This document shows positions 1,838-36,029 of a DNA stretch of 36,841 nt, piece by piece. The position numbers and the translations under genes were made by a program. The stretch comes from a virus. The notes below the pieces were generated by a model. It was not told where the DNA came from and did no database searches. It saw nothing but the letters and a program-made list of their open reading frames with translations. The stretch spans positions 1-36,841 of the IMG/VR virus record IMGVR_UViG_3300020159_002162; one strand, given 5' to 3'. Each line of letters begins with the position of its first letter. Position 1 is the stretch's first letter.

Positions 1838-2791
1838 TTATTTGATTGATTTTAAGATCTTGATTATTGTGGACATGAAGCAAATCTCCTTGTCCACCAC
1901 AGAAGCGTCCTGAAATTGTCCGTCTGCAAGTATAACTATAACTTCCGCAGTCTTATTCGGGGCATAATCATCCACTTTTTCAAACAATACTGTGTAGAAG
2001 TCTGCAAAGTTTCTGATATTATTGTCGGCAAGAAGTTGACGGATTGCTGTGAATGCTTCATGCGTGTCGTCGATCTTGAGCATTTCAATGATCTTTGCTT
2101 TTACATCACCCTCAAGAATATCTTCTTTGGCCAACTTTAATTCACCATGTACAACATTTCGTTGAGCGGTATTAATCACGGCGCGAATATCTGGATAATG
2201 AGTGTTGACAAGAAGCACTACACCATCCTTGTCAAATGATACATTTTCATTTTTCAGAATGTTCACAAGATTGGCGGCGACATCCTTTTTACTCGGAGGC
2301 ATGACTCCGAAGGATTGACACCGAGAATGAATAGGCTCAATGATTCGCTCGTGAAAATTACAGGTAAGAATGAATCTGGTATGCTCGCTGAATGTTTCCA
2401 TCATGTTTCTTAATCCAGCTTGAGCAGCGGGAGTAAAGTAATCAGCTTCATCGAGAATGATGACCTTGAGAGGATTGAATCCGATGTTACATGCAAAGTT
2501 CTTGATCTTAACTCGGATGGTTTCAATACCATTCTCATCAGATGCATTGATATATAACACATCGCATTTGATGCTACTTGTAATCAGCTTGGCAAGTGTG
2601 GTCTTACCTGTTCCTGCGCTGCCATACAAAAGCAGATGCGGAATGTCATTGGTTTCGATATACTGTGCCACCTTATTCTTGAGAGTGTCGTTGCCAACAT
2701 AATCTTCCAGTTTGCTTGGACGATATTTTTCTGCCCAAATAGTATGATGACGAACTTCTTGTTCGGGTTGTTCTTCAATTAGAAAGCTCAT
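1838..2791 (-). CDS. 44: Clamp loader ATPase subunit, gp44-like
   Basis: This AAA+ protein of 317 aa (T4 gp44 is 319) has the RFC-small-subunit layout. It starts IWAEKYRPSKLEDYVGN, then Walker A GSAGTGKTT (57-65), Walker B LDEAD (113-117) and the SRC arginine-finger motif (156-158). It would form the ATP-driven complex that opens the sliding clamp and places it at primer-template junctions. It lies 7 nt downstream of the clamp gene and in the same operon as polymerase B, as in T4. The start has no good Shine-Dalgarno; an A-rich AATAAAAACACC precedes the ATG. No gp62 partner is visible next to it, so either gp62 lies elsewhere, has diverged, or the loader is built from one subunit type. Confidence 0.95.
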   Translation of the reverse strand: MSFLIEEQPEQEVRHHTIWAEKYRPSKLEDYVGNDTLKNKVAQYIETNDIPHLLLYGSAGTGKTTLAKLITSSIKCDVLYINASDENGIETIRVKIKNFACNIGFNPLKVIILDEADYFTPAAQAGLRNMMETFSEHTRFILTCNFHERIIEPIHSRCQSFGVMPPSKKDVAANLVNILKNENVSFDKDGVVLLVNTHYPDIRAVINTAQRNVVHGELKLAKEDILEGDVKAKIIEMLKIDDTHEAFTAIRQLLADNNIRNFADFYTVLFEKVDDYAPNKTAEVIVILADGQFQDASVVDKEICFMSTIIKILKSIK

Positions 2792-9665: not shown

Positions 9666-10210
9666 AATAAATGAGATTTATCTTTATAATTTGGCCATCG
9701 ATACCAATGATATAAGTAAACTCCTCGCATCAAATATAATTTCTCGTTTGATTTTATTACTTTCGTATGCAAGTCGGTGTCAACTCCCAGCATTCCATTC
9801 TCCAAAAATCCTCCAATTTTTTTCCAAAGGCGCTTTTGGATCAGAATCATACAACCACTCATTAAGTTTCCACTTTTTGTTTTTGTAATATCTTCACATG
9901 AAGTACCATATATGGACTCCATCATCAGTCCAAAATTCCTATGATATGCCATATCATTTGATTTGGTATCAACACCCGGAGCAATTTGCTCGGGGCAATA
10001 TACTCGGTTTGTGTAACAAGTATAGCAAGATATATTTGGGTTTTGCTCGATTACATTTTCAATGGTATATCCGTAAAATGGAGTGGTAAATATGGTATCT
10101 CCATCTACAAAACAAGAAAAATCTTGATCACTGGGAATTGTTTTCATTACATCATTGTAATATTTACCAATGTTTTTTTCAGTACTATATGGTATAGAAT
10201 AATATATCAT
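9662..10210 (-). CDS. Short GT-A fold glycosyltransferase (182 aa)
   Basis: The sequence carries a DxD-type metal site in FVDGDTIF (D36, D38) and the block SGCMILIQKRLWKKIGGF, followed by GMLGVDTDLHTKV and YLYHWYR. This is the typical second half of family 2-like GT-A enzymes, where the acceptor loop and a late Asp/His coordinate the sugar nucleotide. It is shorter than most GT2 proteins (about 230-300). It starts in an ATGA overlap with the three-domain glycosyltransferase upstream and ends in another with the GT-D fusion downstream, so translation of the three is coupled. Donor and acceptor cannot be told. Confidence 0.72.
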   Translation of the reverse strand: MIYYSIPYSTEKNIGKYYNDVMKTIPSDQDFSCFVDGDTIFTTPFYGYTIENVIEQNPNISCYTCYTNRVYCPEQIAPGVDTKSNDMAYHRNFGLMMESIYGTSCEDITKTKSGNLMSGCMILIQKRLWKKIGGFLENGMLGVDTDLHTKVIKSNEKLYLMRGVYLYHWYRWPNYKDKSHLL

Positions 10211-12474
10211 ACTTTTATTCCGTCGATATAATTTTTAATGCAAACTTCCGACAATGGCTGTTTAAATTTTTCAATTTCAGCATTTGAATGTTTCCACAAT
10301 TGAAAATATTTTCCGGAAAATTCAATCGGATCGAATACTTCAATCTTTGCGAGCTTGTTCCATATCACAAAATTGAACGATAGTTGATCTCGACATGAGC
10401 CGACCAACACTTCTTTCCACCAGTCCTCACAGAGTTTTTTACATTCAATAGTGTTATGCTTTCTAACTATAATTCCACTTTGAATTAAACCATGATTCTT
10501 AGGATATCCAAGTTCTTTGTATCGAAGAATCTGACTTACTACCGTGTCAGCAAGGTCTTTTTGTCGATGCAGAACTGCTACAGCTTCTTCGTATATACAA
10601 TTTCTAAGCGGATGTTTTGATATGGAGAAGTAACCATTCATACTTTTAGATATAAACTCATTTGTATCTCTAAGAACTTCAATACTACCATCTATCCAAA
10701 CCGAAACATCATATTCGCTCAAAAAAAGATGCGGCATTATTTTTAAACATCTGGCAATCTTTTGCTTCGATAGCAAATTTAGCATACCGGGAATTTCTTT
10801 TATTTTCCACGTTTTGCTTGTGATGGGTTTGTCCGAAAAACACACATAATCAATGTTTGGATTTGGAGACTGAATCTCTTTCAAATAGTCATATCCGCCG
10901 GTAATACAAGTGTATACTACTATCTTATTGCTTGTTTGTGATTCGCCGTCTTCTTTTCGGTTGCGAAAGTAAGAATTTATTTTTTTATAAAATTCTTGAC
11001 TCACATTAGAGAATTCTATCAAGCCTTTTTCTCCAATTGATACGTTATTATCAATGTTTATATCGGAATATATATTCCATCTATGATTATATTTTCTATT
11101 GTGAAATTCCCCATGCCACCCATGAATTACATCTCCGTCCAAACACGCCACTTTTTTGTCTATGTATTTTGTAACCGCCGCTTTCCATATCTGGAATTTT
11201 TCACAATTTTCATTTTTTCCATATATTCCAATTATATTTCGTATTGGAATTTGATTTTCAAATCCGAGCACAGATGCAATAAATGCAACATCGCCTCCTC
11301 CCACAAAACAATAAGGGTACAATCCTCCGTTATTCCACAATTCCCTCAAAGCCGCCCACGCTCCTCCCGGAAGACCTGTTAAACCAATCTCCCCCGATAC
11401 CCCGCAATTCTTCATGATCGAATTCTTGTTTCCAACAACTTTTTCATTTTCGTCGGTATATAAATAGTTGGAATATAACTGTATAAGTTTATGTTCATCC
11501 AGTGCTTTACTTGCCTCGTCGTACCAATTTGCATTCAAAAACTCTAGATCCGCATCTATCCATGCAATCTTCTTGTAAGATTTTGGAACCAATTCTTGGA
11601 CAGCTAAATTTATACATGCTTCTTTTTGAAAGCAAACGTTTTCTTTGCTTATCAATATCTGTGTCCATCCCTCTAGACCCATCGTAACAAATTTATCAGT
11701 CTCGGAAAGCTCTATTCCAAACAATGGAACTGACTTCAATTCCATATTTCTAATAAACCTGTTTAAATTTTTTGCCGTATTTTTGTAATTACACCAATTG
11801 AAATGACAGGTAACTACTGCCATATCTTTCTTTTTTTCCAATTCCGTCGGATGCCATAGATGAATTCCCTTTATATCTATTTTCTGAACTTTGGATTGCT
11901 CGTTCACCCGCTTTGCTAGTTCCATATCCTCATACCCCCATCCGTATATCGATTCATCCATAGCGCCCATCGAAATAAACGTACTTACCTCGAATATAAA
12001 AGACAATGCTCCATACATGGAAATATATTTCACTCTGTCGTCTGAGAAATTTACATCTAATTTTTTTCCAGAACGAATAATATCACTATCTCTTTGATTT
12101 AGTTTTTTTGCAATCTCATATGGTTGTATAAAAGATGCTGTCCAGTCATGTTCAAAAACCGACTTAAACCTCATATAATAATCTACATCGTTCACCCATG
12201 CATATTTTGTATGCACGTGTTGTAAAACTGCATGATTTATTATTCCTGTTTTATGAAATCGCTTCTCTGGAGTCTTAAATAATATATGCTCAACTTTACT
12301 AAACTTAGAAAGAATTTCGAACAGGTTTGAAGTATCGTTTTCGATCTGTTCAACTACAAGTATTCTACATCCAGTGGACTGGATATATGGGAGTATGAAC
12401 TTAAGATTCTCAATACGGTCTTCCTTAAGATCGTATACTGGTATTATAAATGTAATATCATTGGGACTTGGCAT
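10207..12474 (-). CDS. Three-domain glycosyltransferase (GT2, GT-A, DUF616/TOD1-like)
   Basis: I read three catalytic modules in 755 aa. Module 1 (about 1-210): ITFIIPVYD, KTGIINHAV, AWVNDVDYY (metal-site D96/D98), then SIYGWGYEDMELAKRV and GIHLWHP, a GT2 with a galactosyltransferase-type C-terminus. Module 2 (about 218-470): AVVTCHFNW, KIAWIDADLEF (D307/D309), GGGDVAFIA and GWHGEFHNRKY. Module 3 (about 517-755): IVVYTCITGGYDYL, DYVCFSD, VSVWIDGSIEV, HPLRNCIYEEA and GSCRDQLSFNFVIW, which fits the DUF616/TOD1 glycosyltransferase-like family. I place the start at the ATG at 12474 (MPSPND) because the ATG at 12495 lies inside a putative -10. It heads the glycosylation operon and may build a multi-sugar chain on a virion protein, DNA base or host surface. 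Confidence 0.75.
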   Translation of the reverse strand: MPSPNDITFIIPVYDLKEDRIENLKFILPYIQSTGCRILVVEQIENDTSNLFEILSKFSKVEHILFKTPEKRFHKTGIINHAVLQHVHTKYAWVNDVDYYMRFKSVFEHDWTASFIQPYEIAKKLNQRDSDIIRSGKKLDVNFSDDRVKYISMYGALSFIFEVSTFISMGAMDESIYGWGYEDMELAKRVNEQSKVQKIDIKGIHLWHPTELEKKKDMAVVTCHFNWCNYKNTAKNLNRFIRNMELKSVPLFGIELSETDKFVTMGLEGWTQILISKENVCFQKEACINLAVQELVPKSYKKIAWIDADLEFLNANWYDEASKALDEHKLIQLYSNYLYTDENEKVVGNKNSIMKNCGVSGEIGLTGLPGGAWAALRELWNNGGLYPYCFVGGGDVAFIASVLGFENQIPIRNIIGIYGKNENCEKFQIWKAAVTKYIDKKVACLDGDVIHGWHGEFHNRKYNHRWNIYSDINIDNNVSIGEKGLIEFSNVSQEFYKKINSYFRNRKEDGESQTSNKIVVYTCITGGYDYLKEIQSPNPNIDYVCFSDKPITSKTWKIKEIPGMLNLLSKQKIARCLKIMPHLFLSEYDVSVWIDGSIEVLRDTNEFISKSMNGYFSISKHPLRNCIYEEAVAVLHRQKDLADTVVSQILRYKELGYPKNHGLIQSGIIVRKHNTIECKKLCEDWWKEVLVGSCRDQLSFNFVIWNKLAKIEVFDPIEFSGKYFQLWKHSNAEIEKFKQPLSEVCIKNYIDGIKV

Positions 12475-12520: not shown

Positions 12521-13178
12521 CTCTTTTGTCCTCTTCTTTTTCTTTTTTCTTCTCGCTCATCGTCTCTCGTTTATCTTTTGCTTCAACTTTCCAATTTGGA
12601 ATTCTTGGTACCTGTTTATGTTCCCAAATATCTTCATCGCTGTTTCTTTTAAAATACCAAAGTATATATTTTGATTGCACTCCATCCCGTATATATTTGT
12701 CTATGTTGTTGAATGTTTTATTAACAAATCCAACATTACCATATGATACAGGCGTTCCCATGTCTGAATCATATACAATATGCTGCCCTGCACTATATTC
12801 AAACCAGTAAAATTGTTTTTCATCAAGAGAAATTTTCTTTAACCGTGGCGTTTTTATGTTTGAAGAATTGCTATTTGGTTTTGGAAATTTGTCCAGAATT
12901 CCGTTGGCCGAGTATCCTTTTGGCTTTTGATTACTTTCTTTCCATCCTTTTACCGCATCTCGTACCATCCAATACACTTTGAATGTGTTTCGTGTTTTAT
13001 TCAGTGCATCTTTTGCTTGCTTATCCAATTCTCCCAGAATCAACTTTTGACTGCCATATTTAATAGGATCGCCCAAACCAGAGTCATATAATACAAACTT
13101 AGATGTACTAATTTCAAACACAAAAAATATTGTATCAGTGCTTGAAATTTTCTTGTATGATGTTGGTCTTTGATCCAT
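12507..13178 (-). CDS. Tandem-duplicated protein of unknown function (223 aa)
   Basis: Two similar segments of about 65 residues occupy roughly 8-74 and 113-178. They line up as KKISSTDTIFFVFEI / KKISLDEKQFYWFEY, KFVLYDSGLGDPIKYGS / QHIVYDSDMGTPVSYGN, and VYWMVRD / ILWYFKR. A charged tail rich in Lys/Glu ends the protein (SEKKKEKEEDKRVDEM). I recognise no family. The frame stays open upstream to 13229, but that extension is coded by the terminator hairpin of the preceding gene, so the start is the ATG at 13178 (MDQRPTS). The 11-mer TATTTATATAT abuts this ATG and may be a late-type promoter. A virion role is possible; no function can be claimed. Confidence 0.75.
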   Translation of the reverse strand: MDQRPTSYKKISSTDTIFFVFEISTSKFVLYDSGLGDPIKYGSQKLILGELDKQAKDALNKTRNTFKVYWMVRDAVKGWKESNQKPKGYSANGILDKFPKPNSNSSNIKTPRLKKISLDEKQFYWFEYSAGQHIVYDSDMGTPVSYGNVGFVNKTFNNIDKYIRDGVQSKYILWYFKRNSDEDIWEHKQVPRIPNWKVEAKDKRETMSEKKKEKEEDKRVDEM

Positions 13179-13189
13179 ATATATAAATA
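13179..13189 (-). promoter_or_regulatory. TATTTATATAT element before the duplicated-protein gene
   Basis: The 11-mer ends directly at the ATG at 13178 and follows the terminator at 13191-13222. The same 11-mer precedes two other genes (20867 and 31370). It resembles an AT-only late -10 box; T4 late promoters use TATAAATA, which is the sequence of the other strand here. Confidence 0.35.
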
Positions 13190-13190
13190 G

Positions 13191-13222
13191 AAAACCGTTG
13201 GGATTTTTGTCCCAACGGTTTT
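13191..13222 (-). terminator. Rho-independent terminator after the winged-helix-like gene
   Basis: A perfect 13-bp inverted repeat (AAAACCGTTGGGA / TCCCAACGGTTTT) with a 6-nt loop, ending in T residues on the minus strand. It lies 21 bases past the stop of the gene at 13244-13618. The reverse direction also ends in T residues, so it could work both ways. Confidence 0.85.
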
Positions 13223-13243
13223 TACACAAGTATTCCTTATGTA

Positions 13244-13618
13244 TTAGGAGGCAGTCACAGTTGCAGTTGTGCTCTGCTCTGTTGGAATAATAGTCTTGAT
13301 TTTATTATCAGACTTTACTTCTGCCACGGTAATCGCCGCCTTGGGTTCATCGCCGAACAATACTCCAGCGGACTTTGCAGCTTCAATCAATTCCTTGCTG
13401 GGGTTTGCACGAGCAAACACGAGCTTCGGACGACCGATGGCAGGTTTGATCTTTCCAATCGACACGATCTCCTTGCTTTCAACTGCCTTCTTAACTCGAA
13501 AGCGCAGTGTGATGTTTACAACATCAGGATACTTACCTTGCACATCATCGATGGTAAAATGGCTTGTGGGCCAATCAATGGTCAGTGCATTCTTCTTATT
13601 TGTTTTATCATTACTCAT
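13244..13618 (-). CDS. Small putative winged-helix DNA-binding protein (124 aa)
   Basis: Residues about 18-72 fit a winged helix-turn-helix outline: a helix FTIDDVQGKYP, a possible recognition helix VVNITLRFRVKKAVES, and a two-strand wing EIVSIGKIKPAIGRPKLVFA. A second helix NPSKELIEAAKSAGV follows, and the C-terminus is Thr/Ser/Ala-rich and probably disordered. I do not recognise a named family, so the fold is my reading and regulation is inference. The ATG at 13618 is preceded by an A-rich leader (AACAAATAAACAAATAAAACAT) without a Shine-Dalgarno. It follows rIIB by 48 nt and is closed by a strong terminator, so it is probably the last gene of the rII transcript. Confidence 0.6.
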   Translation of the reverse strand: MSNDKTNKKNALTIDWPTSHFTIDDVQGKYPDVVNITLRFRVKKAVESKEIVSIGKIKPAIGRPKLVFARANPSKELIEAAKSAGVLFGDEPKAAITVAEVKSDNKIKTIIPTEQSTTATVTAS

Positions 13619-13666
13619 ATGTTTTATTTGTTTATTTGTTAATATTTAACTTATTCTTTACCCAAA

Positions 13667-14701
13667 TTATAAGACATCATTGAAACCGTCGTCGTATCCA
13701 TTTTTATACGCATCGGTTGCATTAGAATGAAGATTGGTTTGATACTCCAATCCAAAGTTTCGATCATGAGACCCTCGGTCGTAACCTTCCTTGTATTCAT
13801 CCTCGCGCTCACAGTCACACATGGAGTCATCGCAGAAATCATCGGATTTATCGGAACAATCACTGTCCCAGTTACCACTTTGGTCATCAGACCCGTTGTT
13901 ATAATCAGGCTCAAACGATTGTGCATTACTCGTATAAACAACCTTGTCGAGTTCCTTTACAACATCCTTGATTTCAGAAACCACGGTATATTCGCATACA
14001 CGCATCTTGGTGTGGCCCTCGTACTTAGGAACGCTAACAACGTCCTTGGGGTTAACCTTTACTAGCAGAAGTCGATTGCCACCGTCGGCAATCGGCTGGC
14101 CCTTGACAAAGTGGCCATATCCTACGACATAATCAAGAGCACCAACGTGAAGACCATGACTACAATCGATGCCATAGTTGTCATCAACTTGATTACGAGA
14201 CATGCTCACAACGCTACCAATCGTGTTGTTAAACTTGCCACTATAGATATCAGTGTAGTTATTACGAACTGCCTTATAAGCAATGAAGCATCCGTCATCT
14301 GTGATAGGAAGACCATAGTTCTCAAGGAACCAATATGTCTCATCGACCGCACGCTTGCTGCTATTCTGCATGAGATTTTCAAGAAACTTGATCATGTGAT
14401 CAAACTTGAAACCTTCACCCATCATCTTAATGATACGGTCGGTAAGAGTATTATGAACAGCAAAATCGCCGTAAAAGATCTCGCCATTGATGATCTTGAC
14501 GCGACCAGAGGTATATTGGGTCACGGCCTTTGCTACATTAACAAGAGTTTCGATCTGACTAAAATCATTGCTCTTGATAGCGTCAATGATCTTATTGTAG
14601 TTGGGGTGGTCAGTAGCCACAGTAAGACACTCATCGTTTAGATAGAGTGTTACGGAACCATTTGTCTTGATTACATACGGGATGTTTTGTGTATTACTCA
14701 T
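13667..14701 (-). CDS. rIIB: rIIB-like protein
   Basis: The central block is clear T4 rIIB homology: MIKFLENLMQNSSKRAVDE, TYWFLENYGLPITDDGCFIAYKAV, YTDIYSGKFNNTIG, SMSRNQVDDNYG and CSHGLHVGALDYV. The length is 344 aa against 312 in T4. The extra part is mainly a C-terminal tail: a Cys-containing acidic stretch (DSDCSDKSDDFCDDSMCDCE, about 280-299) and a Gly/Tyr/Asp segment. In T4, rIIA and rIIB protect against the RexAB exclusion system and influence lysis; the molecular activity is not settled. The gene follows rIIA, the same order as T4, but has its own promoter (14735-14762) with a 33-nt leader. The ATG at 14701 begins MSNTQNIPYV. Confidence 0.9.
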   Translation of the reverse strand: MSNTQNIPYVIKTNGSVTLYLNDECLTVATDHPNYNKIIDAIKSNDFSQIETLVNVAKAVTQYTSGRVKIINGEIFYGDFAVHNTLTDRIIKMMGEGFKFDHMIKFLENLMQNSSKRAVDETYWFLENYGLPITDDGCFIAYKAVRNNYTDIYSGKFNNTIGSVVSMSRNQVDDNYGIDCSHGLHVGALDYVVGYGHFVKGQPIADGGNRLLLVKVNPKDVVSVPKYEGHTKMRVCEYTVVSEIKDVVKELDKVVYTSNAQSFEPDYNNGSDDQSGNWDSDCSDKSDDFCDDSMCDCEREDEYKEGYDRGSHDRNFGLEYQTNLHSNATDAYKNGYDDGFNDVL

Positions 14702-23674: not shown

Positions 23675-25072
23675 TCACAAATATGCATTTTCGCCATTTT
23701 CCTTTTGGCGAGCAGCATTCCATTTACTTCTCAATGTATTCTTTACACTATTGTCCGAGTCCTGCATTTCTGCTTGAATTTGCATCGACTCTGAAGATTT
23801 TGAATCATACAATTCAATTTGACCTTTGCTTGTATCCATTCGCGCATACAATGTGATGCCATCTGGTCCAAATCTGTTCTTGATTACATGGCAGCGAGCA
23901 GTATTGTTCGCTTTGTCGTTTGTGTTACGAGAAACGCTGATAACAAAGTCGGCAGTCATGATCTTGCGATATGAGTCGGCAATGTTATGAGCCTGAACAA
24001 CATCTTCTTGTCCACCACTTCGGTTTGTCTGTGAAGCAGTCCATACAGGAATCTGAAGTTCACCAGCGGCTTGGCGCAGTTCTTCATAGATACCACCAGC
24101 TTCACTATAACTGTTGCTGTTGCTATCTTTTTCAAGCGGACGAAGAATGTCGGCATAATCGACAACCATTTCATCAATCTTGATCCCTTCAAGTGCTTGA
24201 ATGCGTTCAATATGAAACTTAAGAGACTGGGCACTAACTGTCTTGAGTGGGAAATACTTTACAAACAGTTTTCCATCAATTTGCTTGATTGCTTCTTCAA
24301 CATCACTTTGACGATGCTTGATTTCCTGAAAATCAATTCCAGTAAAACAGCAGTCATAGCGCAGACCGACATAATTTTCATTAAGCTCAAGTGTGAAGTG
24401 AGCAATATTCTTACCCTGCTTCATTGCTTTTGCGCCAAGACTGCAAAGCAGCCAAGACTTGCCGATGCCAGCGGGTGCAACGACAATCCCAAGTTCTCCC
24501 GGTCCAAGACCACCATCCATGAGCGAATCAACAACTTCCCATCCAGTCGAGATCGTCTTACGGCACATTTCACTCATGCGCCCAGCAACTTCCTTGTGAT
24601 AATTGTGACCAAGATTACGTTCCATACCAGCCTTCATGGCACGATCAATCAACGCCTTGATTCTATCATACTGTCCAGATTGAAGATGATCAACCGACTG
24701 CATGATAGCACCCTTGAGCTTTTGATTCTTGCAAAATTCAAGAAATTGTTCACGTACAAACTGAAGATCTGTTTCGCTGACCTTGCTATATACACGACGA
24801 AGTTGTTCAGTTACAGATTCCTTCAATTCGGCGTTTTCAATGGTATCAACACGGACCTTGAATACTTGCATAGTAGGCAATTCCTTATAATCCATGTGAT
24901 AATGGATGATTTCCTTCAGTATCCATTGATGGGCGGAATTTTCAAACGCCTCCACATCAATGATATCTACCACACGCTCTAGGAAAGATCTATCCGTGAG
25001 AATGCTCGCGATGATTTTAACTTGGAAATCCAAGCCAAACTTATGTAGGTTGTCTATAATTACTGGTGCCAT
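23675..25072 (-). CDS. 41: Replicative DNA helicase, gp41/DnaB-like
   Basis: The 465-aa protein (T4 gp41 is 475) has an N-terminal helical domain (DFQVKIIASILTDRSFLERV) and a RecA-like domain with Walker A APAGIGKSW (199-207), TLELNENYVG (E229), Walker B MVVDYADIL (302-310), ASQTNRSGGQ and the Arg-finger region KNRFGPDGI. It would form the hexamer that unwinds DNA 5' to 3' ahead of polymerase B. The C-terminal tail of about 50 residues is polar. No gp61 primase is visible in the window. The gene has its own promoter (25092-25118), with the ATG at 25072 after 19 nt. It lies between nrdB and the FEN nuclease. Confidence 0.93.
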   Translation of the reverse strand: MAPVIIDNLHKFGLDFQVKIIASILTDRSFLERVVDIIDVEAFENSAHQWILKEIIHYHMDYKELPTMQVFKVRVDTIENAELKESVTEQLRRVYSKVSETDLQFVREQFLEFCKNQKLKGAIMQSVDHLQSGQYDRIKALIDRAMKAGMERNLGHNYHKEVAGRMSEMCRKTISTGWEVVDSLMDGGLGPGELGIVVAPAGIGKSWLLCSLGAKAMKQGKNIAHFTLELNENYVGLRYDCCFTGIDFQEIKHRQSDVEEAIKQIDGKLFVKYFPLKTVSAQSLKFHIERIQALEGIKIDEMVVDYADILRPLEKDSNSNSYSEAGGIYEELRQAAGELQIPVWTASQTNRSGGQEDVVQAHNIADSYRKIMTADFVISVSRNTNDKANNTARCHVIKNRFGPDGITLYARMDTSKGQIELYDSKSSESMQIQAEMQDSDNSVKNTLRSKWNAARQKENGENAYL

Positions 25073-25137: not shown

Positions 25138-26247
25138 TTAAGATGCTGCAAAAACCGACAACGGATAAAATACTTCCTGAAGCCATACATGGAAATTGGG
25201 AATACTGGAGTGCATTCCATGTGTGGTTAATTTCTGAATGAAATGAAATTTATTGAAAGCATAAATGTGCTCTGTGCCTTCTTGTATCTTTAATTGAAGT
25301 GAAGGAGAAAAATCTGGGTTCTTCAATTGCATCAGTGTGTAATTTCTTTGAACAATCTCGGCATGTTCAACCACAGATGCATATGCTTTCTTTTCATTGA
25401 CGCAATCTTTTGCGCGTAATAGAATTTTTTCCACAGATGTTTCTTCTGCTTCAGTAAGCATAGGAAAATTCTTGATCGCTGTCTTTAATCCGATTCCTTT
25501 TACTCCATCAATATTATCAGATGAATCTCCTTCAAGTATGCGATAGTATATGAAATTCGTAGGATGAATACCATATTCATTGATTACATCGGCAATTCCA
25601 TACACCTTCTTCTTGATTGGACTCCAAATCTGGACACGGTCATTAATCAACTGCATAAAGTCTTTGTCGCCACTCATGATTGTGACTCGACCATCTTTAT
25701 ACATTTGTGTAGCAATATATGCAATAGCATCATCAGCTTCAATATGATCAATTGAAATTACACTCACAGGAAGTTCTTGTAGGAATGATACAAGTTTACC
25801 CATTTGTTCGACCACTGATTTCTGTTCAGTTTCAGTGTCAGACATTTCCTCGTATGCACGATTAAGACGCTTCATTACTTTGCGTCCTTCTTTGTATTGT
25901 GGATATAACTTTCTGCGTCTTTCACTTCCGCCCTTACCATCAAATACAATGATGACTCTGGTCGGGCGTAATAGTTTTATTGTATAACCAAGACTGCTCA
26001 AGAAACCAGAAACTCCACCAACATGATCACCATTATCACTTAATGTTGGAACCACAGTCCAACAACGAATGAAATTATTTGTTCCATCAACAACGAGAAC
26101 ATCGCTGTTCTTTTCTTTCTTCGTGTTTACAGGCAAAGCAGCATGCTCCGCTTTTATCTGAGAAAAGATGGATGAGAATTTCTTTTTTGTTTCCTCTTGC
26201 TTCATGATATGATAACCGTGTGGAGGTATTTCACTCCACATGGTCAT
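25138..26247 (-). CDS. rnh: 5'-3' exonuclease/flap endonuclease, RNase H-like (FEN family)
   Basis: The FEN nuclease metal residues are present: VVDGTNNF (D54), VIIVFDGKGG (D103), IEADDAIAY (E170, D172, D173), SGDKDF (D194, D196) and GDSSDNIDGV (D241, D244), followed by a helix-hairpin-helix GVKGIGLKTA (248-257) and the basic arch segment ERRRKLYPQYKEGRK. The length of 369 aa exceeds T4 RNase H (305), partly through an N-terminal extension of about 45 residues. It would remove RNA primers and 5' flaps. The ATG at 26247 is 6 nt after the uvsX stop; a later ATG (MKQEE, residue 15) is a possible alternative start. Confidence 0.9.
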   Translation of the reverse strand: MTMWSEIPPHGYHIMKQEETKKKFSSIFSQIKAEHAALPVNTKKEKNSDVLVVDGTNNFIRCWTVVPTLSDNGDHVGGVSGFLSSLGYTIKLLRPTRVIIVFDGKGGSERRRKLYPQYKEGRKVMKRLNRAYEEMSDTETEQKSVVEQMGKLVSFLQELPVSVISIDHIEADDAIAYIATQMYKDGRVTIMSGDKDFMQLINDRVQIWSPIKKKVYGIADVINEYGIHPTNFIYYRILEGDSSDNIDGVKGIGLKTAIKNFPMLTEAEETSVEKILLRAKDCVNEKKAYASVVEHAEIVQRNYTLMQLKNPDFSPSLQLKIQEGTEHIYAFNKFHFIQKLTTHGMHSSIPNFHVWLQEVFYPLSVFAAS

Positions 26248-26253
26248 TTGTTT

Positions 26254-27486
26254 TTATTCGTTGGAACCTTCAGATGCTTCGTCATATTCAACGTCATCCG
26301 AGATTTCAGAATTTGGAGCCTTGTACTTCATTACGAAGTTTTCACACAACTTGGTATACAAGTATTCTCTACATTCTGGACGATCCTTCAACAATTTTGG
26401 CAAGTCCTTCTTTTCAAACACGACTGTCTCTGGTTCTTTACCAGCGACTTCCATGATGAATTGTAGGTTTTTTGCCTTCTTGTCTTCTTCTTTTTCCTCT
26501 TCAATCTGTTTCTTTGTTTTCTTTTCTCCGGCGACTTTCACCTTTTTAGCATTAGTAATAATATCCCATTCAATGAGATGTTCCAACCAATTACTATAAT
26601 TGTCGATACCGCGATCAAAGTAGATATCAAATTCAACCGTTCTCATAGGTGGACCCATGCGGTTCTTGACAACTTTGCACTTTGTGCGGATACCAACAGT
26701 TTGTTTGTCGGCATTCTTGATCTGGTTCATCTGCTGCAACCGCAGACGAAGGGAGGCGTGGAAAGCAATAGCCTTGCCACCGCTTGTTGTCCAAGGATCA
26801 CCGAGGCCAACAAATCCAACCTTCTGACGAAGTTGGTTAGTGAAACACAGGCAGATGCGCTGCTTGCCGATCAATCCTGTGACCTTTCGCATCGCCTTGC
26901 TGATGGCGATAGCTTTGCCCGTTGCATAACCATCGGCACCATGATCGCTAGCCAATTCCTTCTTTGTAGAAGCAGCGGCAACAGAATCAACAAGAATTGT
27001 AACAAGACGATTCTTGTTTGACTTGCGAACAAGTGCAATGATCTCTTCAACTTTGTCAAATACATCCTCCACCGTGTCTACGTTGATATACATCATCTTT
27101 GGTATATCAACTCCAATCGCAGTTAGAAAGTCGGTGGACACAGACGTTTCAGTGTCAATAAATACCGCCAATCCTCCTTTGCGTTGTGTTTCAGCAAGAA
27201 GATGTGCTCCCATAAGACTCTTACCAGATGCTTCTAGTCCAGTTAGTTCGGTAATACGACCAACGGGTAGTCCTCCATTAGGACGATTTGCGATTGTAAG
27301 ATCAACCAAGCTATTGCCAGTTGATACCCAATCGGTAATTTGTGACGGGTCATCTTCGGCATCAAGAAAAAACGCAACCTTGCCATCACTGTTTTTATTC
27401 AGTGATTCAGCAATAGATTCCGCCAATTCATCTCTACCAGAAGTCAATTCTACTTCAACAGACTTTTTCTTTTTTTCTTTTTCCAT
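26254..27486 (-). CDS. uvsX: UvsX/RecA-family recombinase
   Basis: The 410-aa protein has Walker A GLEASGKS (83-90), the catalytic Glu in DTETSVS (E113), Walker B LVDSVAA (D167), loop segments QLRQKVGF and KVVKNRMGPPMRTV, and a long Lys/Glu-rich C-terminal region ending in an acidic tail. T4 UvsX is 391 aa. It would form the presynaptic filament for strand exchange and recombination-dependent replication. The frame remains open upstream to 27540, but I choose the ATG at 27486 (MEKEKKKKS), because the upstream part lies in a strong hairpin (27509-27536). It follows SSB and precedes the FEN nuclease with a 6-nt gap. Confidence 0.94.
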   Translation of the reverse strand: MEKEKKKKSVEVELTSGRDELAESIAESLNKNSDGKVAFFLDAEDDPSQITDWVSTGNSLVDLTIANRPNGGLPVGRITELTGLEASGKSLMGAHLLAETQRKGGLAVFIDTETSVSTDFLTAIGVDIPKMMYINVDTVEDVFDKVEEIIALVRKSNKNRLVTILVDSVAAASTKKELASDHGADGYATGKAIAISKAMRKVTGLIGKQRICLCFTNQLRQKVGFVGLGDPWTTSGGKAIAFHASLRLRLQQMNQIKNADKQTVGIRTKCKVVKNRMGPPMRTVEFDIYFDRGIDNYSNWLEHLIEWDIITNAKKVKVAGEKKTKKQIEEEKEEDKKAKNLQFIMEVAGKEPETVVFEKKDLPKLLKDRPECREYLYTKLCENFVMKYKAPNSEISDDVEYDEASEGSNE

Positions 27487-27508
27487 AATGTTTATAGTTG
27501 AGATTAAA

Positions 27509-27536
27509 GGTGTGCCGCGCACCCACGCGGCACACC
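27509..27536 (-). terminator. Strong hairpin between SSB and uvsX (partial terminator or processing site)
   Basis: An 11-bp GC-rich stem (GGTGTGCCGCG / CGCGGCACACC) with a 6-nt loop, followed on the minus strand by TTTAATC. The short T tract makes it a weak or leaky terminator, which would lower uvsX relative to SSB; a role in mRNA stability is also possible. Confidence 0.6.
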
Positions 27537-27566
27537 CCACTTAATCATTTCACCAACATCCAACTC

Positions 27567-28388
27567 TTACGAGTTGAACAAGTCGTTGAATTCGTCAGCA
27601 ATTGCCTTGCTGGAGTTAGCTGGCTTGATAGCCGCCTTTGCTGTTGCGCTCTGAACAGGCTTTGCAGAAGCTTCTTCGGATGTTTCAGTTGTCTCGGAGG
27701 TTTCCGGTGCAACTTCACCATCAGGATTTGCTTCGGATGCATTAAGCCAAGTATCCATCACAGCAGCAAGTTCTTCGTAAGTCAGTTCAGGGAACAGTTC
27801 TGTGACATTCTTTTGATTCTTGATCTTCTCTTTCACTGCATTTTCACTTGGATCGAATGCAATGCTAGTGTTTGGCTTGACACGGATTGTGGTCTCGGGA
27901 AAACTCTTTCCAGTTTCCTCCGCTGTCTTGAACTCGACAGTGATGTCGCGTCCAGTCTTGAGATCAGTGATATCACCGTAATCGGGATCGGCAATGATCG
28001 CGAGTAGTTCCTGATAAACCTGCTTGCCCATGCCCCAGAACTTCACACCCTCGGACTCTTGTCCGCGAACGAGAATAGGAACATATGTGCGAAGCTTTGG
28101 TTCAAGTGCACGACCTTGCTTCCAATCATCCTTGGATCCACTCTTCTTGAGTTTGTTGGCAAACTCAACAATGGGGTCGGGACGACCAAATGAGGACGGA
28201 GACAAATATGTCTTTCCGTTCATGTTATAATGGAAAAGCAGTTCAATGAACGGATTTTCGAGATTGTGAGAATAGGGAACAATACGGATCGTTTGTTTGC
28301 CCTGCGGCTTCCACAGCGCGGTGGACTTTGTAGTGTTGTTCTTGAGTGTATCAAGACGCGACTTAATTTTGTTTAGATCTAATGGCAT
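27567..28388 (-). CDS. 32: Single-stranded DNA-binding protein, gp32-like
   Basis: The 273-aa protein (T4 gp32 is 301) begins with the basic N-terminal region MPLDLNKIKSRLDTLKNN, then KQTIRIVPYSHNLENPFIELLFHYN, SPSSFGRPDPIVEF, YVPILVRGQESEGVKFWGMGKQVYQ and GRDITVEFK, matching the OB-fold core of T4-type SSB. The C-terminal 60 residues are Ala/Ser/Thr/Glu-rich and end IADEFNDLFNS, the acidic tail that recruits replication partners. There is no cysteine in the whole protein, so the zinc finger of T4 gp32 is absent. The leader is about 65 nt with an inverted repeat and an A-rich stretch, resembling the translational operator of T4 gene 32. Confidence 0.92.
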   Translation of the reverse strand: MPLDLNKIKSRLDTLKNNTTKSTALWKPQGKQTIRIVPYSHNLENPFIELLFHYNMNGKTYLSPSSFGRPDPIVEFANKLKKSGSKDDWKQGRALEPKLRTYVPILVRGQESEGVKFWGMGKQVYQELLAIIADPDYGDITDLKTGRDITVEFKTAEETGKSFPETTIRVKPNTSIAFDPSENAVKEKIKNQKNVTELFPELTYEELAAVMDTWLNASEANPDGEVAPETSETTETSEEASAKPVQSATAKAAIKPANSSKAIADEFNDLFNS

Positions 28389-28587: not shown

Positions 28588-28986
28588 TTAATTTATACGA
28601 TAAATTTTCAGCAATTTTGTTGGAGTGATTTTCACTTTTCCATCTCTTGCTGATATGAAACAATTGCTGTAATTTTCCCAAGCTATCTTGTGGCTTGATG
28701 ATTGTACTCCGTTGTTCTCATGAAGTATCAATCCGTTCAATGCATTTATACTGTATATGATATTATATTCTTTTTTACGATGTACTGAAATTGTATTGGG
28801 ATAAAATTGCCCACCATTCTTTACTACATTGTATGTAAGAAATATTTCGTTTGAGTTTGATTTGCTTTCTAGCACATACACTTTTCCATCAACTACCTGA
28901 TAATATTCGGAGATAGATTCTATCTCTTGCATATACGTGTCCTTTTTGGAAAAAGTACACAATAGTTGTGTGTTATGCTCTGGCAT
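28588..28986 (-). CDS. Hypothetical protein (132 aa)
   Basis: I do not recognise this protein with confidence. It looks beta-rich: YYQVVDGKVYVLES, EIFLTYNVVKNGG, FYPNTISVHRKKEY, IIYSINALNGLI and KIAWENYSNCFISARDGKVKI. The mix of aromatic residues and Lys suggests a small globular protein. The ATG at 28986 lies 5 nt after the stop of the upstream 286-aa gene, so it shares that transcript. A gap of 199 bases to SSB follows; it holds the SSB promoter and leader and no other clear feature. Confidence 0.7.
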   Translation of the reverse strand: MPEHNTQLLCTFSKKDTYMQEIESISEYYQVVDGKVYVLESKSNSNEIFLTYNVVKNGGQFYPNTISVHRKKEYNIIYSINALNGLILHENNGVQSSSHKIAWENYSNCFISARDGKVKITPTKLLKIYRIN

Positions 28987-29858: not shown

Positions 29859-31370
29859 TTATGAAGTTGGTTTTTCGTTTGCACCGATATCTCCAGCAGC
29901 TTGTGCTTTGCTCTTACCCATTCCCGGTACATACATATACAATTTTCCAAATCCAAGTGCCACGAACTCCAACGTCTTAATCTTGTTTTCATCATATAAT
30001 TGAGCGTCGTTGGTTCCCTTCTTTTTGCTGATGATGATCATTCTCTTGTACTTATCCGTTATGAGTTCCATTACTTCTCCCTGTACTCTTTTTTCATCCC
30101 AATTTTCTTTGAAGAAAGAAAGCTTCATACATTTTTCCGCAATCGTCGCGTCATCTTTTTCTACCTTTGGTTCAACTGGAACATCTAGTACTGCCTTTTC
30201 GCCAGTTACGTTGTCTATCTTTGCATTCAATGCTGCAACTTGATCGTCTGGAACTTTGAATTCGCGGTGTTTGTTTCCGATATCAATTTCAATCGATCCA
30301 ATATCTGGCTTCTGTCCTGATATTGGACTTTTTATTTTTTCCGATACAATGAAGATTGCATCAAACAAGAATTGAGAAACTTCTCCCACCTTTGGATCTT
30401 CGAAAAATGAATCGATTGCAGTCTTATACTTTTCCATTTTGTCAAATGGACCCATTTTCTTATACAATTTGCCATCATCTTCCAATACTTTTTTAACGAA
30501 GTCTTTCATTCCATCAGTTTTATTCGCGGCAAGTGCAAGCTCGTGAATTGCAATATTGAAATCCGAGTTTGAGAATCCGGTCAAAGTTGGCGCACTTATT
30601 GCAATTGTTGCACCAATAACTTCCTTAACTTCAACTCCACCTTTTTTATCAGCAAGTTCAGCGAATAAAATGTCCATTTCTGTTCCACCACCCGATCTTG
30701 CTCCTTTTAGAATAAAAACAATAGGTATTTCTCCACGACCACCACCCGCAAATTTAACATCATCAATTGCATTGATAAGCGGCTGAAACTCTGGGTATAC
30801 TTTTCCTTTGTATATTTCAATTGCTTCCTCAATCGTCGGCACAGTGTCATACATAGCCTTGTATTTGTTTACCAACGATTGGTTTGGGAAATTTTCAAAT
30901 ACTCTCTTTAACTTTTGAACATTTGCTATGGATACTGATTTTTGATTTCTTAGCAACTTTAGCTTTGGATCTTTTTCGGCTTTTACCAAAGCATCGCTCA
31001 TATTTTGAGTGTTCGCTCTCTTATAGCTCTTGTCTGGAAATTGTCTTTTTCCAGTGTAAATTGACTTATCTGCGTGATTGTCCTGATCAGGATGTCCTAC
31101 CGATATAAAATGTTTTATTTGTCCTTTTTTGGTTGGGTCCATTACCTTAAAAATATAATCGCGATCATCGCCATATATTTCTGGCTCTTTTCCTTCATTG
31201 AATATTGGACCCATTACCTCTACAACTTCTGGCTCAGACAATCCACATTCAAGCAATATATCTTCAAACGCTTCGATGTTTTCAAGTGTTTTATGTCCAC
31301 TGGCCAAACCGTCGTGAGAACGCAGTGCCCACTCGCTTAGAATATGCTCTATAATCTTGCTTTTATCCAT
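29859..31370 (-). CDS. Probable virion-associated protein with PD-(D/E)XK-nuclease-like motif (503 aa)
   Basis: The N-terminal module (about 11-70: LSEWALRSHDGLASGHKTLE, EAFEDILLECG, GPIFNEGKEPE) is shared with the next gene. The central part has GGGRGEIPIVFILKG (E214), GTEMDILFA (E231, D233) and GGVEVKEV (E247, K249). The order E, D, ExK across 36 residues fits the PD-(D/E)XK nuclease fold. A helical domain, a Lys/Glu linker and a beta-rich domain with KRMIIISKKKG and EFVALGFGKLYMYVPG follow. Nuclease activity is unproven; a packaged virion protein acting on DNA is one option. The ATG at 31370 is preceded after one base by TATTTATATAT. Confidence 0.65.
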   Translation of the reverse strand: MDKSKIIEHILSEWALRSHDGLASGHKTLENIEAFEDILLECGLSEPEVVEVMGPIFNEGKEPEIYGDDRDYIFKVMDPTKKGQIKHFISVGHPDQDNHADKSIYTGKRQFPDKSYKRANTQNMSDALVKAEKDPKLKLLRNQKSVSIANVQKLKRVFENFPNQSLVNKYKAMYDTVPTIEEAIEIYKGKVYPEFQPLINAIDDVKFAGGGRGEIPIVFILKGARSGGGTEMDILFAELADKKGGVEVKEVIGATIAISAPTLTGFSNSDFNIAIHELALAANKTDGMKDFVKKVLEDDGKLYKKMGPFDKMEKYKTAIDSFFEDPKVGEVSQFLFDAIFIVSEKIKSPISGQKPDIGSIEIDIGNKHREFKVPDDQVAALNAKIDNVTGEKAVLDVPVEPKVEKDDATIAEKCMKLSFFKENWDEKRVQGEVMELITDKYKRMIIISKKKGTNDAQLYDENKIKTLEFVALGFGKLYMYVPGMGKSKAQAAGDIGANEKPTS

Positions 31371-31371
31371 A

Positions 31372-31382
31372 ATATATAAATA
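31372..31382 (-). promoter_or_regulatory. TATTTATATAT element before the 503-aa gene
   Basis: The third copy of the 11-mer, one base before the ATG at 31370. It is a candidate late promoter with a leaderless transcript. Confidence 0.35.
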
Positions 31383-31430: not shown

Positions 31431-32798
31431 TTAGTCTATGGATATTTGCTTCATGTCCTTGTAGTTGTTTCCTACATATATTTTGACAGGAAACTTGCCT
31501 CTCTCCATTATGTTTTTTAGCTTTTTGATTGTGTCCATCTTGTCTGCTTTATGGGCATCAAAAAGAATGCTGTCATATGTGTACAATATTGGTTGTGTTT
31601 TCCTGTCATCTAGTTCAGATAGAATATCTCCAAGTACTTCAACGGCTGTTTCTGTTTCAAATGCCTGTAGAATATAGTTGAATAGCTTGCTTGGATTGGC
31701 GTCTGGAATATGGCACTCTTTGATTTTTCTCTTGTATTTTGGCGTTTCAATATACCCGTTCTGCTCAAAGAATTTCCAACGATGGTCAATATATTCTTGG
31801 ATTTTATAGAAATATGGAATATGTAGCCATTTCTTGTCTATACCGCCATATAGTTGTGTGAATGTAAATCCCTTAGCAACAGCAATATCTTCATCATTTG
31901 CTTCCTTCTTATTGAAGAAATATTTGGCAAGATATGCATATGGATTTTCTTCGGCGCTCATGTTGAAGTTCACAAGATGCGCAATCAGTCTGGGATGAAA
32001 TGCATTATAATCCATCATGACTAGCATACCATTGTTTTTGTGTCTGCTGATAAAACATTCTCTACTACCATCATTCTTGTTAAGCGCAGCATAATTTACT
32101 CCACCAAATCTGTTACTTGGTCTACCTGTGCTGGTAAGAAGATTGTATTGTGAGAATACCAAATTATTTTTGATGTGTTTGGTTTGGTCGTTTCCAAATT
32201 CATCTGTGAAATTTTCATTTATACACAATCCAATATTTTCCAATTTGGCAAAACACTTTGTCATGGTGTTGTTGACAAACTTGAAACCATCGTCACGAAT
32301 CATGTCGTTGTTAATCTTACCAAGATTGTTTACTTTTTCACTGAACGATCTGATGTGCTTATAGATTGGCGTGCATGCATTTATGTTTGATACATCTCTA
32401 AAGTTTGATCGTATAAAAGTATGCGCGTTTGTTTCATGTTGCTTTTGATCATGCATTCCCTCGTCGAGATACTTAAGTATGCTTATATCAATGAAATCAT
32501 AGTCTTCATCAAAAAGTTGTATGATCGATTTCTTGTCAAAAACAAACTTGTTATGAATTGAGAACTTGAGATGTTCCTTGACCTTGTTCAGTGAATTGGC
32601 AATGGGAAGTGCCTCATTATGATGCAAAGGTAAACACCATAAACTCTTGGACGACATAAAGTAAAACATCAATAGACTTACAGTATTATTTTTTGCATGT
32701 TTTTCATGATCAACACATACAGCGTCCATCACAAAAGCATCGCTGCCAATGTGACTACACATCAAAATAAGCTCGTCTTGTGTTTCTACAATATGCAC
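31431..32798 (-). CDS. Compact family A (Pol I-like) DNA polymerase with decayed exonuclease domain
   Basis: All family A palm/finger motifs are present in 455 aa. LLTSTGRPSNR (220-230) matches TATGRLSS of E. coli Pol I. Motif A is MMDYNAFHPRLIAH (D263, R270, H274) for DYSQIELRILAH. Motif B is AKGFTFTQLYGG (K309, F313, Y317). NYILQ (374-378) matches the NxxxQ motif. Motif C is YTYDSILFDAHK (D409). The two catalytic Asp are kept. The steric-gate Glu (Pol I E710) is His268, R754 is Ile305, and HDE of motif C is YDS. The N-terminal 120 residues look like a decayed 3'-5' exonuclease: DAVC for DTET and no clear Exo III. The start is GTG at 32798. The gene has an early-type promoter although its neighbours are structural genes. 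Confidence 0.85.
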   Translation of the reverse strand: MHIVETQDELILMCSHIGSDAFVMDAVCVDHEKHAKNNTVSLLMFYFMSSKSLWCLPLHHNEALPIANSLNKVKEHLKFSIHNKFVFDKKSIIQLFDEDYDFIDISILKYLDEGMHDQKQHETNAHTFIRSNFRDVSNINACTPIYKHIRSFSEKVNNLGKINNDMIRDDGFKFVNNTMTKCFAKLENIGLCINENFTDEFGNDQTKHIKNNLVFSQYNLLTSTGRPSNRFGGVNYAALNKNDGSRECFISRHKNNGMLVMMDYNAFHPRLIAHLVNFNMSAEENPYAYLAKYFFNKKEANDEDIAVAKGFTFTQLYGGIDKKWLHIPYFYKIQEYIDHRWKFFEQNGYIETPKYKRKIKECHIPDANPSKLFNYILQAFETETAVEVLGDILSELDDRKTQPILYTYDSILFDAHKADKMDTIKKLKNIMERGKFPVKIYVGNNYKDMKQISID

Positions 32799-32806
32799 AT
32801 TTACAT

Positions 32807-32833
32807 ATTGTACGACTGTTCTTAAAAAGTCAA
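32807..32833 (-). promoter_or_regulatory. Promoter of the family A polymerase gene
   Basis: TTGACT (32833-32828), 15 bp and TACAAT (32812-32807), then 8 nt to the GTG at 32798. Both boxes match five of six consensus bases. It predicts a nearly leaderless mRNA, as for polymerase B, and separates this gene from the surrounding late genes. Confidence 0.65.
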
Positions 32834-32837
32834 GAAC

Positions 32838-33221
32838 TCAATGTCCGCGCCAATATTCAAGAGGATTGTTCAACGCTTTTGAAAGATCAATGTCCTCTTC
32901 TTTTCTTATGCGCTCAATCTCATATTTGTTTGACTGTATGACTCCATACTCAAGTATACCGTTGAGCATTCTGTTTTCTCTTGGCCCTGATATTGTCCAT
33001 TTTGCCACTACCACCTTGTATAGTTCAGAATTTAAACGATTTGCCTGTTCCATGCTGACTTCAGTTATGATGTTTCCATTTATTCTTTTTGAAAAAGCAC
33101 GATTAAATACTCCATTGTCATAATCTTTTTTATTTGGTGATGGCTTTGATGGAAGTGGATACTCGCCATTCAATTCAGTGAATGAACCATATTCAGATGG
33201 TATGTTGTCGTTGTACTTCAT
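32838..33221 (-). CDS. Hypothetical protein in the tail gene cluster (127 aa)
   Basis: I do not recognise a family name. The N-terminus is Pro/Asn/Ser-rich (PSEYGSFTELNGEYPLPSKPSP). The middle has EVSMEQANRLNSELYKVVVAKWTISG, and a charged end YEIERIRKEEDIDLSKAL finishes in LEYWRGH. The start overlaps the stop of the large baseplate-like gene in an ATGA junction (33221), which ties it to the tail transcript. A small structural or assembly protein is likely. Confidence 0.72.
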   Translation of the reverse strand: MKYNDNIPSEYGSFTELNGEYPLPSKPSPNKKDYDNGVFNRAFSKRINGNIITEVSMEQANRLNSELYKVVVAKWTISGPRENRMLNGILEYGVIQSNKYEIERIRKEEDIDLSKALNNPLEYWRGH

Positions 33222-35717: not shown

Positions 35718-36029
35718 TTAAACTGCGTTTGCTTTATTGAAATTTGTAACTATTAAATCCACTCGTTGTGGAATTCTCATTTGTTTTCCTGTTGGTGCTT
35801 TTAGTGTTCCTTTTACTCCGTTAGCTTGGGCAAGTATCCACCAAAGTGATGGATCTTTGTAATACTTCTGTGCCATACTATCCAAATAATCAGTTTCTGT
35901 TGCTATTATGTATATGTCATCATAATAGTATGGTATTTTTGGATATCTCGTAGTTCTAAATACCCTTTTACCATCATACCTGTTAAATACATTATTACTG
36001 GTTGGAGTATATCTGTTCATAGTACCCAC
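35718..36029 (-). CDS. 53: LysM-domain baseplate wedge protein, gp53-like
   Basis: The C-terminal half has the phage baseplate LysM pattern: TDYLDSMAQKYYKDPSLWWI (46-65), LAQANG, then TGKQMRIPQ (80-88). T4 gp53 and P2 gpX use such domains to hold baseplate subunits together. The protein is 103 aa, shorter than T4 gp53 (196), so only the LysM part is certain. Its N-terminus (NRYDGKRVFRTTRYPKIPYYYDDIYI) is basic and aromatic. The start at 36029 overlaps the previous gene by 13 nt, and the stop is 16 nt before the large tail gene. The gp53 equivalence is by domain and context. Confidence 0.7.
   Translation of the reverse strand: MGTMNRYTPTSNNVFNRYDGKRVFRTTRYPKIPYYYDDIYIIATETDYLDSMAQKYYKDPSLWWILAQANGVKGTLKAPTGKQMRIPQRVDLIVTNFNKANAV

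Follow-up and report, generated by a model that had tools for sequence, protein, structure and literature searches.

A second, small family A DNA polymerase encoded alongside gp43 in an environmental T4-like phage

Introduction

The replication of phage T4 is a textbook system with one polymerase. The locus described here raises the question of what a T4-like phage would do with a second one. The DNA that was analysed, called the window below, is a virus record of 36,841 bases with the larger open reading frames on the minus strand. It encodes a T4-type replication set (clamp loader, gp43, helicase, exonuclease, UvsX, and gp32) and also rIIB, rIIA, and ribonucleotide reductase. An initial annotation of this DNA had reported a complete family B replicase and a 455-aa family A polymerase with motifs A, B, and C, and had called the presence of two polymerases in one T4-like phage unusual. 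Both genes were borne out (Table 1), and the combination turned out to have been described already. Divergent phage PolA proteins were named divPolA1 from 14 phages by Yutin et al. 2024 (Virol J 21:200, PMC11348598). According to the available part of that text, a regular polymerase of the A, B, or C family occurs alongside, replication genes lie downstream, the thumb is truncated, and the exonuclease is inactivated; polymerase activity is considered most likely kept, and the biological role is given as unknown. A literature search on the name divPolA1 returned this paper and its preprint only.

We propose, with a probability of roughly 55%, that the small polymerase is an early-expressed, non-proofreading gap-filling or repair enzyme that works beside gp43, together with gp32, UvsX, and a 132-aa partner. 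The small polymerase is encoded in addition to gp43, and gp43 remains the replicase in this scheme. Early expression would be driven by a sigma70-type promoter, in the class to which the gp43 promoter belongs. RNA synthesis would start at the start codon or right beside it, which would give a leaderless or nearly leaderless mRNA. Wherever gaps, nicks, or recombination intermediates offer a short primer end, the enzyme would extend it by distributive synthesis without proofreading. The DNA would be that on which gp32, UvsX, and the neighbouring exonuclease also act, and the 132-aa protein would be the partner of the enzyme. Repair, gap filling, translesion synthesis, and priming had all been suggested earlier; what stands of this is a second, probably accessory polymerase, and the four tasks are indistinguishable by sequence. 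In one branch of the environmental T4-like phages, a second polymerase has been kept, apparently without proofreading, and the invariant His, the 132-aa companion, and the gp43-type promoter element described below make its role testable through sugar selectivity, the effect of the partner, and the timing of expression.

Table 1. Positions of the genes, motifs, and promoter-like elements in the window.
Feature	Position	Strand	Remark
Clamp loader subunit	1838..2791	-	
gp43, family B replicase, 836 aa	3567..6077	-	PHROG_262, E 8.6e-174
gp43 promoter-like TTGACA	6106-6111	-	
DnaB-like replicative helicase	23675..25072	-	
Exonuclease	25138..26247	-	phrog_107; gene at the same place in phage immuto annotated 5'-3' exonuclease
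UvsX-like recombinase	26254..27540	-	
gp32-like single-strand DNA binding protein	27567..28388	-	
132-aa protein	28588..28986	-	linked to the polymerase gene in nearly all testable loci
503-aa protein without assigned function	29859..31370	-	adjoins the polymerase gene downstream
TATTTATA element	31375-31382		before the 503-aa gene
Small family A DNA polymerase, 455 aa, assigned to divPolA1	31431..32798	-	GTG start at 32796-32798
Motif C, residues 404-414	31557..31589	-	Tyr-Asp-Ser replaces His-Asp-Glu
Motif B / O-helix, residues 305-318	31845..31886	-	K309, F313, and Y317 kept; Arg754 equivalent lost
Motif A, residues 259-271	31986..32024	-	D263 = E. coli D705
His268 codon	31995..31997	-	steric-gate position (E. 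coli E710)
Vestigial 3'-5' exonuclease domain, residues ~1-165	32304..32798	-	ExoI and ExoIII acidic residues lost
-10-like TACAAT	32807..32812	-	15-nt spacer; weakly conserved in relatives
-35-like TTGACT	32828..32833	-	first base 35 nt upstream of GTG
127-aa protein	32838..33221	-	adjoins the polymerase gene upstream
Baseplate wedge protein, presumably gp25-like	35718..36029	-	phrog_7145, E 2.8e-7

Results

Family Assignment and Predicted Fold

The small polymerase matched PHROG_17 ('DNA polymerase') at E 1e-13 and Pfam PF00476 (DNA_pol_A) at E 4.9e-8 with 32.8 bits, which is 1.5 bits below the cut-off of 34.3. A family profile of 111 sequences was aligned to residues 330-928 of E. coli Pol I (E 2.4e-11 in a single comparison). 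When the PDB was searched with one sequence, repeat proteins came on top and Klenow appeared at E 0.87; with the family profile, Klenow was found at 1e-5.

The AlphaFold2 model was built from an alignment of 108 members and reached a pLDDT of 94.8 and a pTM of 0.92. The predicted structure has the fold of a Pol I large fragment with palm and fingers. The structure prediction and the profile comparison with Pol I, both proposed in the initial annotation, thus agreed with family A. Among solved structures, the best matches of the model were the Klenow fragment 1kfd (E 1.6e-18, TM 0.74 by query) and the large fragment of a bacterial Pol I, 6vdd_A (Z 27.4, rmsd 3.7, 416 residues). The match to Pol I large fragments covers model residues 1-451, so the N-terminal part is included, and domain order and fold are predicted to be those of E. 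coli Pol I over residues 1-450 or so. The best 50 PDB matches shown are DNA polymerases. Human Pol theta and Pol nu are among the structural matches, and bacterial Pol I ranks above both.

Relatives and the Regular Polymerase Alongside

A tblastn search of 50,697 phage records with the small polymerase gave six matches: four records belong to Flavobacterium phage immuto, one to Microcystis phage Mel-JY01, and the last is the uncultured LR756508. The immuto protein is 33% identical to the window copy over 86% of the query (E 9e-53). The Mel-JY01 protein is annotated 'hypothetical protein', and a literature search by the name 'Mel-JY01' found no paper. In IMG/VR, 64 loci were found by a single-sequence search, and an alignment search gave at least 578 confirmed loci out of 600, of which 80 were kept. 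Searches with the immuto and Mel-JY01 copies confirmed 312 of 316 and 109 of 110 loci, respectively, with 80 kept in each case; the sets obtained with the three queries overlap. For the LR756508 copy, none of five candidate relatives in IMG/VR was confirmed. Homologs were also present in 5 of 59 candidates from bacterial and archaeal genome contigs, all in metagenome bins. These bins (L303-L307) carry the names Flavobacteriales, Winogradskyella, Flavobacteriaceae, Rickettsiaceae, and one further bacterium, and the contigs are probably those of phages. In a tree of 111 rows, the window-like, immuto-like, and Mel-like sequences each fall on one side of a branch with SH-aLRT of at least 98; the groups were labelled by best BLAST query, and, with long branches, the deeper order is unsure. 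Homologs reach down to 24% identity with the window sequence.

A regular polymerase was found in 19 of the 23 records with the small polymerase. Twelve hold PolB, and seven others hold a full-length PolA (open frame of 778-796 aa, E ~1e-57). The remaining four, contigs of 74-114 kb that may be partial, show neither. In the annotations of phage immuto, both PolA genes are present. An origin by recent duplication of the regular PolA was considered and rejected, as the profile did not match the full-length PolA of immuto in any meaningful way; the test is weak, because T7 polymerase was not matched either. The C-terminal [E/Q/K]FFxF end of gp43, which is presumably clamp-binding, was present in 10 of 11 listed gp43 sequences and in none of 261 small polymerases, which fits a distributive enzyme. 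Two gp43 genes have the look of an intein or other insertion: that of LR756508 is split over separate frames (259363-267278), and that of L127 seems interrupted near motif C (about 12976-13833).

Judged from its sequence, the small polymerase of the window belongs to divPolA1. It is homologous to named members, including the one in immuto, it is a second polymerase in a record with gp43, its thumb is truncated, its ExoI and ExoIII acidic residues are lost, and replication genes lie downstream. A divergent PolA beside a regular polymerase is therefore already known, and this copy is a further member; hundreds of environmental contigs carry the small polymerase, which corrects the initial annotation on this point. 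Compared with the divPolA1 description, the window copy sits in a T4-like phage with gp43 and has an Asp (D88) at the ExoII place. The available part of the divPolA1 text (PMC11348598) is silent on the promoter and on the two active-site changes, namely the invariant His and the loss of the Arg, and does not name the 132-aa gene. These are additions of the present analysis, and we do not claim that the 132-aa gene was previously unnoticed: a conserved downstream arrangement was noted for divPolA1 by Yutin et al. in the same part of the text (PMC11348598). There, divPolA2 is presented as another divergent second PolA in phages; going by this description, it differs in having an unrelated N-terminal domain and in occurring in 80-85 kb phages also with PolB (PMC11348598). 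The genes shared within one large aquatic phage lineage include, in the available part of its description, both a PolB family and a family under the name 'DNA polymerase I', which may be a polymerase or a 5' nuclease (PMC12619734).

Gene Order and the Linked 132-aa Gene

The gene had been placed inside a late-gene block. A baseplate gene does lie upstream, but the place is better described as a junction between a baseplate block and a gp32-UvsX-exonuclease-helicase block. Downstream of the small polymerase, genes for 503-aa, 286-aa, and 132-aa proteins are followed by gp32, UvsX, exonuclease, and helicase. The same four are found downstream in immuto, and RecA, exonuclease, and helicase in Mel-JY01. 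Position near gp32 does not show a shared task. No function was assigned by matches to the 503-aa and 286-aa proteins. By eye, one stretch of the 503-aa protein resembles a PD-(D/E)XK nuclease core and is a candidate for it.

On the upstream side, the 127-aa protein had no PHROG match and no Pfam match; to call it gp53-like is a guess made by position only. Of 104 window-type loci, a number that includes some contigs twice, 91 have an upstream protein with the same short motif at its C-terminus. In the window, the TGA of the upstream gene is in the frame of the polymerase, and a fusion or stop readthrough was considered. It was rejected because the spacing of 37, 39, 40, or 42 nt between the two genes, as seen in the window-type rows shown, does not maintain the reading frame among relatives.

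The 132-aa gene was found downstream in 148 of the 149 distinct polymerase genes that have 2.5 kb of downstream sequence (window-type 53/54, immuto-type 43/43, Mel-type 51/51, LR 1/1), the sole exception being L127. In immuto and Mel-JY01 it lies directly 3' of the polymerase gene, and tblastn with the 132-aa protein gave exactly the same six phage records, representing three lineages. The reverse search was made on the 80 of 578 loci that most resemble that of the window, which are therefore not a random sample. The polymerase was upstream in 68 of these, and in the other 12 the upstream DNA is no longer than 2,483 nt; by upstream length, the count is 57/57 for at least 2.6 kb and 9/15 for 1.5-2.6 kb. 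The linkage may come from the common descent of one phage branch instead of joint function.

The model of the 132-aa protein (pLDDT 89.5) has a predicted alpha/beta fold, and a comparison with the PDB gave no match at E 0.001 or better. Its best Z of 6.3, to a spliceosome chain, is at chance level, and so is the likeness to polyomavirus origin-binding domains (Z 6.1, rmsd 4.8, 84 residues; rmsd range 4 to 6). Pfam returned no family for the window copy and weak, scattered matches to 15 families among 60 members.

Exonuclease Domain, Thumb, and Selection

The N-terminal exonuclease region had been called decayed. The profile alignment to E. coli Pol I showed that the acidic residues of ExoI and ExoIII are replaced in the window copy. 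D88 aligns with the ExoII Asp, and this position is unconserved (Asp 54, Asn 56, Arg 1; n = 111). Unlike in E. coli Pol I, a working proofreading site is not expected from these residues. In this sense the description stands, but the fold of the domain persists and the gene is kept by selection. Because H34, H60, K89, K90, and D104 of the N-terminal domain are invariant in 111 homologs, the domain is probably kept for some role other than proofreading. The small polymerase gene is under strong purifying selection, with dN/dS of ~0.05 against two close homologs (0.053 vs. L004 and 0.047 vs. L005); six further comparisons were near or at saturation of silent sites. In L067 the frame of the small polymerase is broken (10001-11365) and in L064 the gene is partly missing (9995-11143), through sequencing error or decay.

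The thumb is shortened as well. By alignment only, about 80 residues of E. coli Pol I (561-640), which we take to be the thumb, remain unaligned. This short thumb, the lost exonuclease residues, the missing [E/Q/K]FFxF end, and the regular polymerase alongside suggest short distributive synthesis.

The lost exonuclease residues and the ~80 missing thumb residues could instead serve the bypass of damaged bases, and the presence of Pol theta and Pol nu among the structural matches is in line with a translesion polymerase. However, bacterial Pol I outranks both, an unsystematic look identified no lesion-bypass feature, and the promoter element common with gp43 suggests routine and not damage-induced use. 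We consider such a function unlikely.

Active Site

The active-site positions were taken from the profile alignment to E. coli Pol I, and a HMMER alignment gave the same mapping; for the E. coli residues we use the numbers that we take to be the standard ones. D263 (D705), K309 (K758), Y317 (Y766), and D409 (D882) were present in 111 of 111 homologs, as were R226 (R668) and Q378 (Q849), while F313 (F762) and N374 (N845) were found in 110. Both metal-binding Asp, the Lys and Tyr of motif B, and the equivalents of R668, N845, and Q849 are thus common to the small polymerase and E. coli Pol I. The differences lie elsewhere in the site. The steric-gate position 268 (E710) is His in 111/111. Position 305 (R754) is Y in 76, I in 26, V in 5, L in 3, and Q in 1, and Arg in none of the 111. 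Motif C reads Y-D-[A/S] in place of H881-D882-E883, with Tyr at position 408 in all 111 homologs and Ala (75) or Ser (36) at position 410. The canonical steric-gate Glu, O-helix Arg, and HDE motif, which are typical and not defining residues of Pol I-type PolA, are absent from the small polymerase family (111/111). A strict motif A pattern fits 163 of 172 distinct long proteins, and eight of the other nine show the His by eye; it is present in 171 of the 172, i.e., in all that hold the region, which is missing from L064.

The PolA of phage Tt72 offers a comparison, as far as the available part of its description goes (PMC9324360). That enzyme depends on the two matching Asp, whose mutation leaves 4% activity, a mutant of the E710 equivalent retains 35% activity, and Ala at the E883 position, where Ser is natural, leaves 76%. 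The Tt72 enzyme is thus active with the Ser that is also found in the window copy; it differs in its length of 703 aa, in the kept steric-gate Glu, and in strong proofreading (PMC9324360). These activities indicate that an enzyme can lack two of the three missing residues and still be active, and the residues kept in the small polymerase would be the ones that cannot be spared. No precedent for the loss of R754 was found in the literature, and this residue is unnamed in the available part of the Tt72 text (PMC9324360). With the normally kept steric-gate Glu and R754 gone, the enzyme may act on a different substrate or have very little activity.

If the substrate is different, it may be ribonucleotides. 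A primer-making or ribonucleotide-tolerant polymerase would admit NTPs through the His gate and make or extend RNA/DNA primers that serve gp43, at sites recognised by the 132-aa protein. The His is found in every one of the 111 homologs, and the Glu of the HDE motif is missing. Solved structures of Bst Pol I E658A contain rCTP, judging by their titles, and E658 is presumably the counterpart of E. coli E710. The likeness of the 132-aa model to origin-binding domains would also fit, at its chance-level Z of 6.1. The steric-gate Glu is said to exclude ribonucleotides in Pol I, in the available part of the Tt72 text (PMC9324360). On the other side, His is not a small residue, and the exclusion of NTPs may persist; F313 is kept in 110/111, and the 50 best PDB matches shown are to DNA polymerases. 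Moreover, a DnaG primase is annotated in immuto and a primase-like match (E 2.8e-5) was found in a 365-kb contig, so a primase can coexist with the small polymerase. In a search for primases that the enzyme might replace, the HTVC008M primase matched 2 of 9 records, and this search is too insensitive to show absence elsewhere. On balance, we find a primer-making or ribonucleotide-tolerant enzyme quite unlikely. We are just as doubtful about a two-part enzyme, in which the polymerase and the 132-aa protein would use ribonucleotides, or both sugars, through the His gate to make or extend primers or repair patches for gp43. If true, it would be a new mode of priming or patching in T4-like replication.

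A catalytically dead protein, kept as a scaffold or regulator for DNA or protein binding, could also have lost the equivalents of R754, E710, and E883. Such a protein could do without the pair of Asp that binds metal and without K309 and Y317 of motif B, yet all four are invariant down to 24% identity, which makes this reading improbable.

Promoter-Like Elements

For the gap-filling or repair polymerase that we favour, early expression is suggested by the upstream sequence. The TTGACT-15-TACAAT element that had been noted before the GTG start is present (Table 1). In the window's clade, 46 of 47 distinct upstreams (36/36 with a GTG start and 10/11 with ATG), many of them from close relatives, contain TTGAC in the 60 nt that precede the start, vs. 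38 of 425 other open reading frames of at least 120 aa of the same loci, whose starts were assigned mechanically, which may lower the control. At -45 to -20, it was found in 36/36 distinct GTG-start homologs and in 13/425 of the other frames, which is more than chance would give. The element is absent from the immuto (0/51) and LR-type (0/1) upstreams and nearly absent from those of the Mel-JY01 clade (2/50), and thus characterises the window's clade and not the family. In 41/47 upstreams its first base is at a distance of 34 or 35 nt from the start codon, at which the RNA of a standard promoter would begin with that codon. The -10 part is less convincing: at least 4 of 6 positions match in 30/46, compared with ~21 in shuffles.

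The promoter had been described as unlike those of the neighbouring genes. This is so for three genes on each side, which have no TTGAC within 60 nt, but 7 of the 29 listed window genes have it, gp43 included. TTGAC stands at -34 to -37 of gp43 in 8/8 cases, i.e., in the window and in 7/7 relatives of the clade with a full start; the Mel-JY01 gp43 is without it. Because gp43 carries the same element, the small polymerase looks co-regulated with the replicase.

We then surveyed 140 kb (L312-L318, contig G001) of a 297-kb relative with a T4 portal protein. TTGAC was found 33-37 nt before the start of 16 of 160 called genes, compared with 0-5 for eight other pentamers. Two of the 16 are the small polymerase and gp43. 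Ten others were scanned for matches and comprised a polynucleotide kinase, two RNA ligases, a nucleotidyltransferase, an endonuclease, an exonuclease, a weak ATPase match, a GtrB-like protein, a dehydrogenase, and one without a match. This suggests a class of leaderless early mRNAs with many genes of nucleic-acid metabolism. At the level of a sequence pattern, the early promoter of the initial annotation is therefore upheld. It falls into the class of the replicase promoter and is not unique to the small polymerase. The tail region of this relative was taken as the first 36 kb of the contig, where tail sheath and baseplate hub were identified among ten proteins scanned. None of the 24 genes of this region had TTGAC in front, vs. 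25 of the 132 genes outside it (p 0.015); the counts were 1/24 and 31/132 when 30 nt inside the gene were included.

These counts bear on a last reading, a late virion-linked protein, packaged or acting at packaging. It would account for the baseplate-gene neighbours, such as the one at 35718, and TATTTATA, which we take to be the reverse complement of the T4 late consensus, precedes the next gene downstream in 33 of 39 distinct intergenic stretches. However, the small polymerase has TTGAC, which was absent before the tail-region genes of the 297-kb relative, and we regard this reading as very improbable. In that relative, TATAAATA, looked for as a late promoter, preceded 2/24 tail-region genes and 2/132 others. 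For TATTTATA, the counts were 6/24 and 8/132 (p 0.009, uncorrected, with the motif chosen after looking), and this element is perhaps the late promoter of the window's clade.
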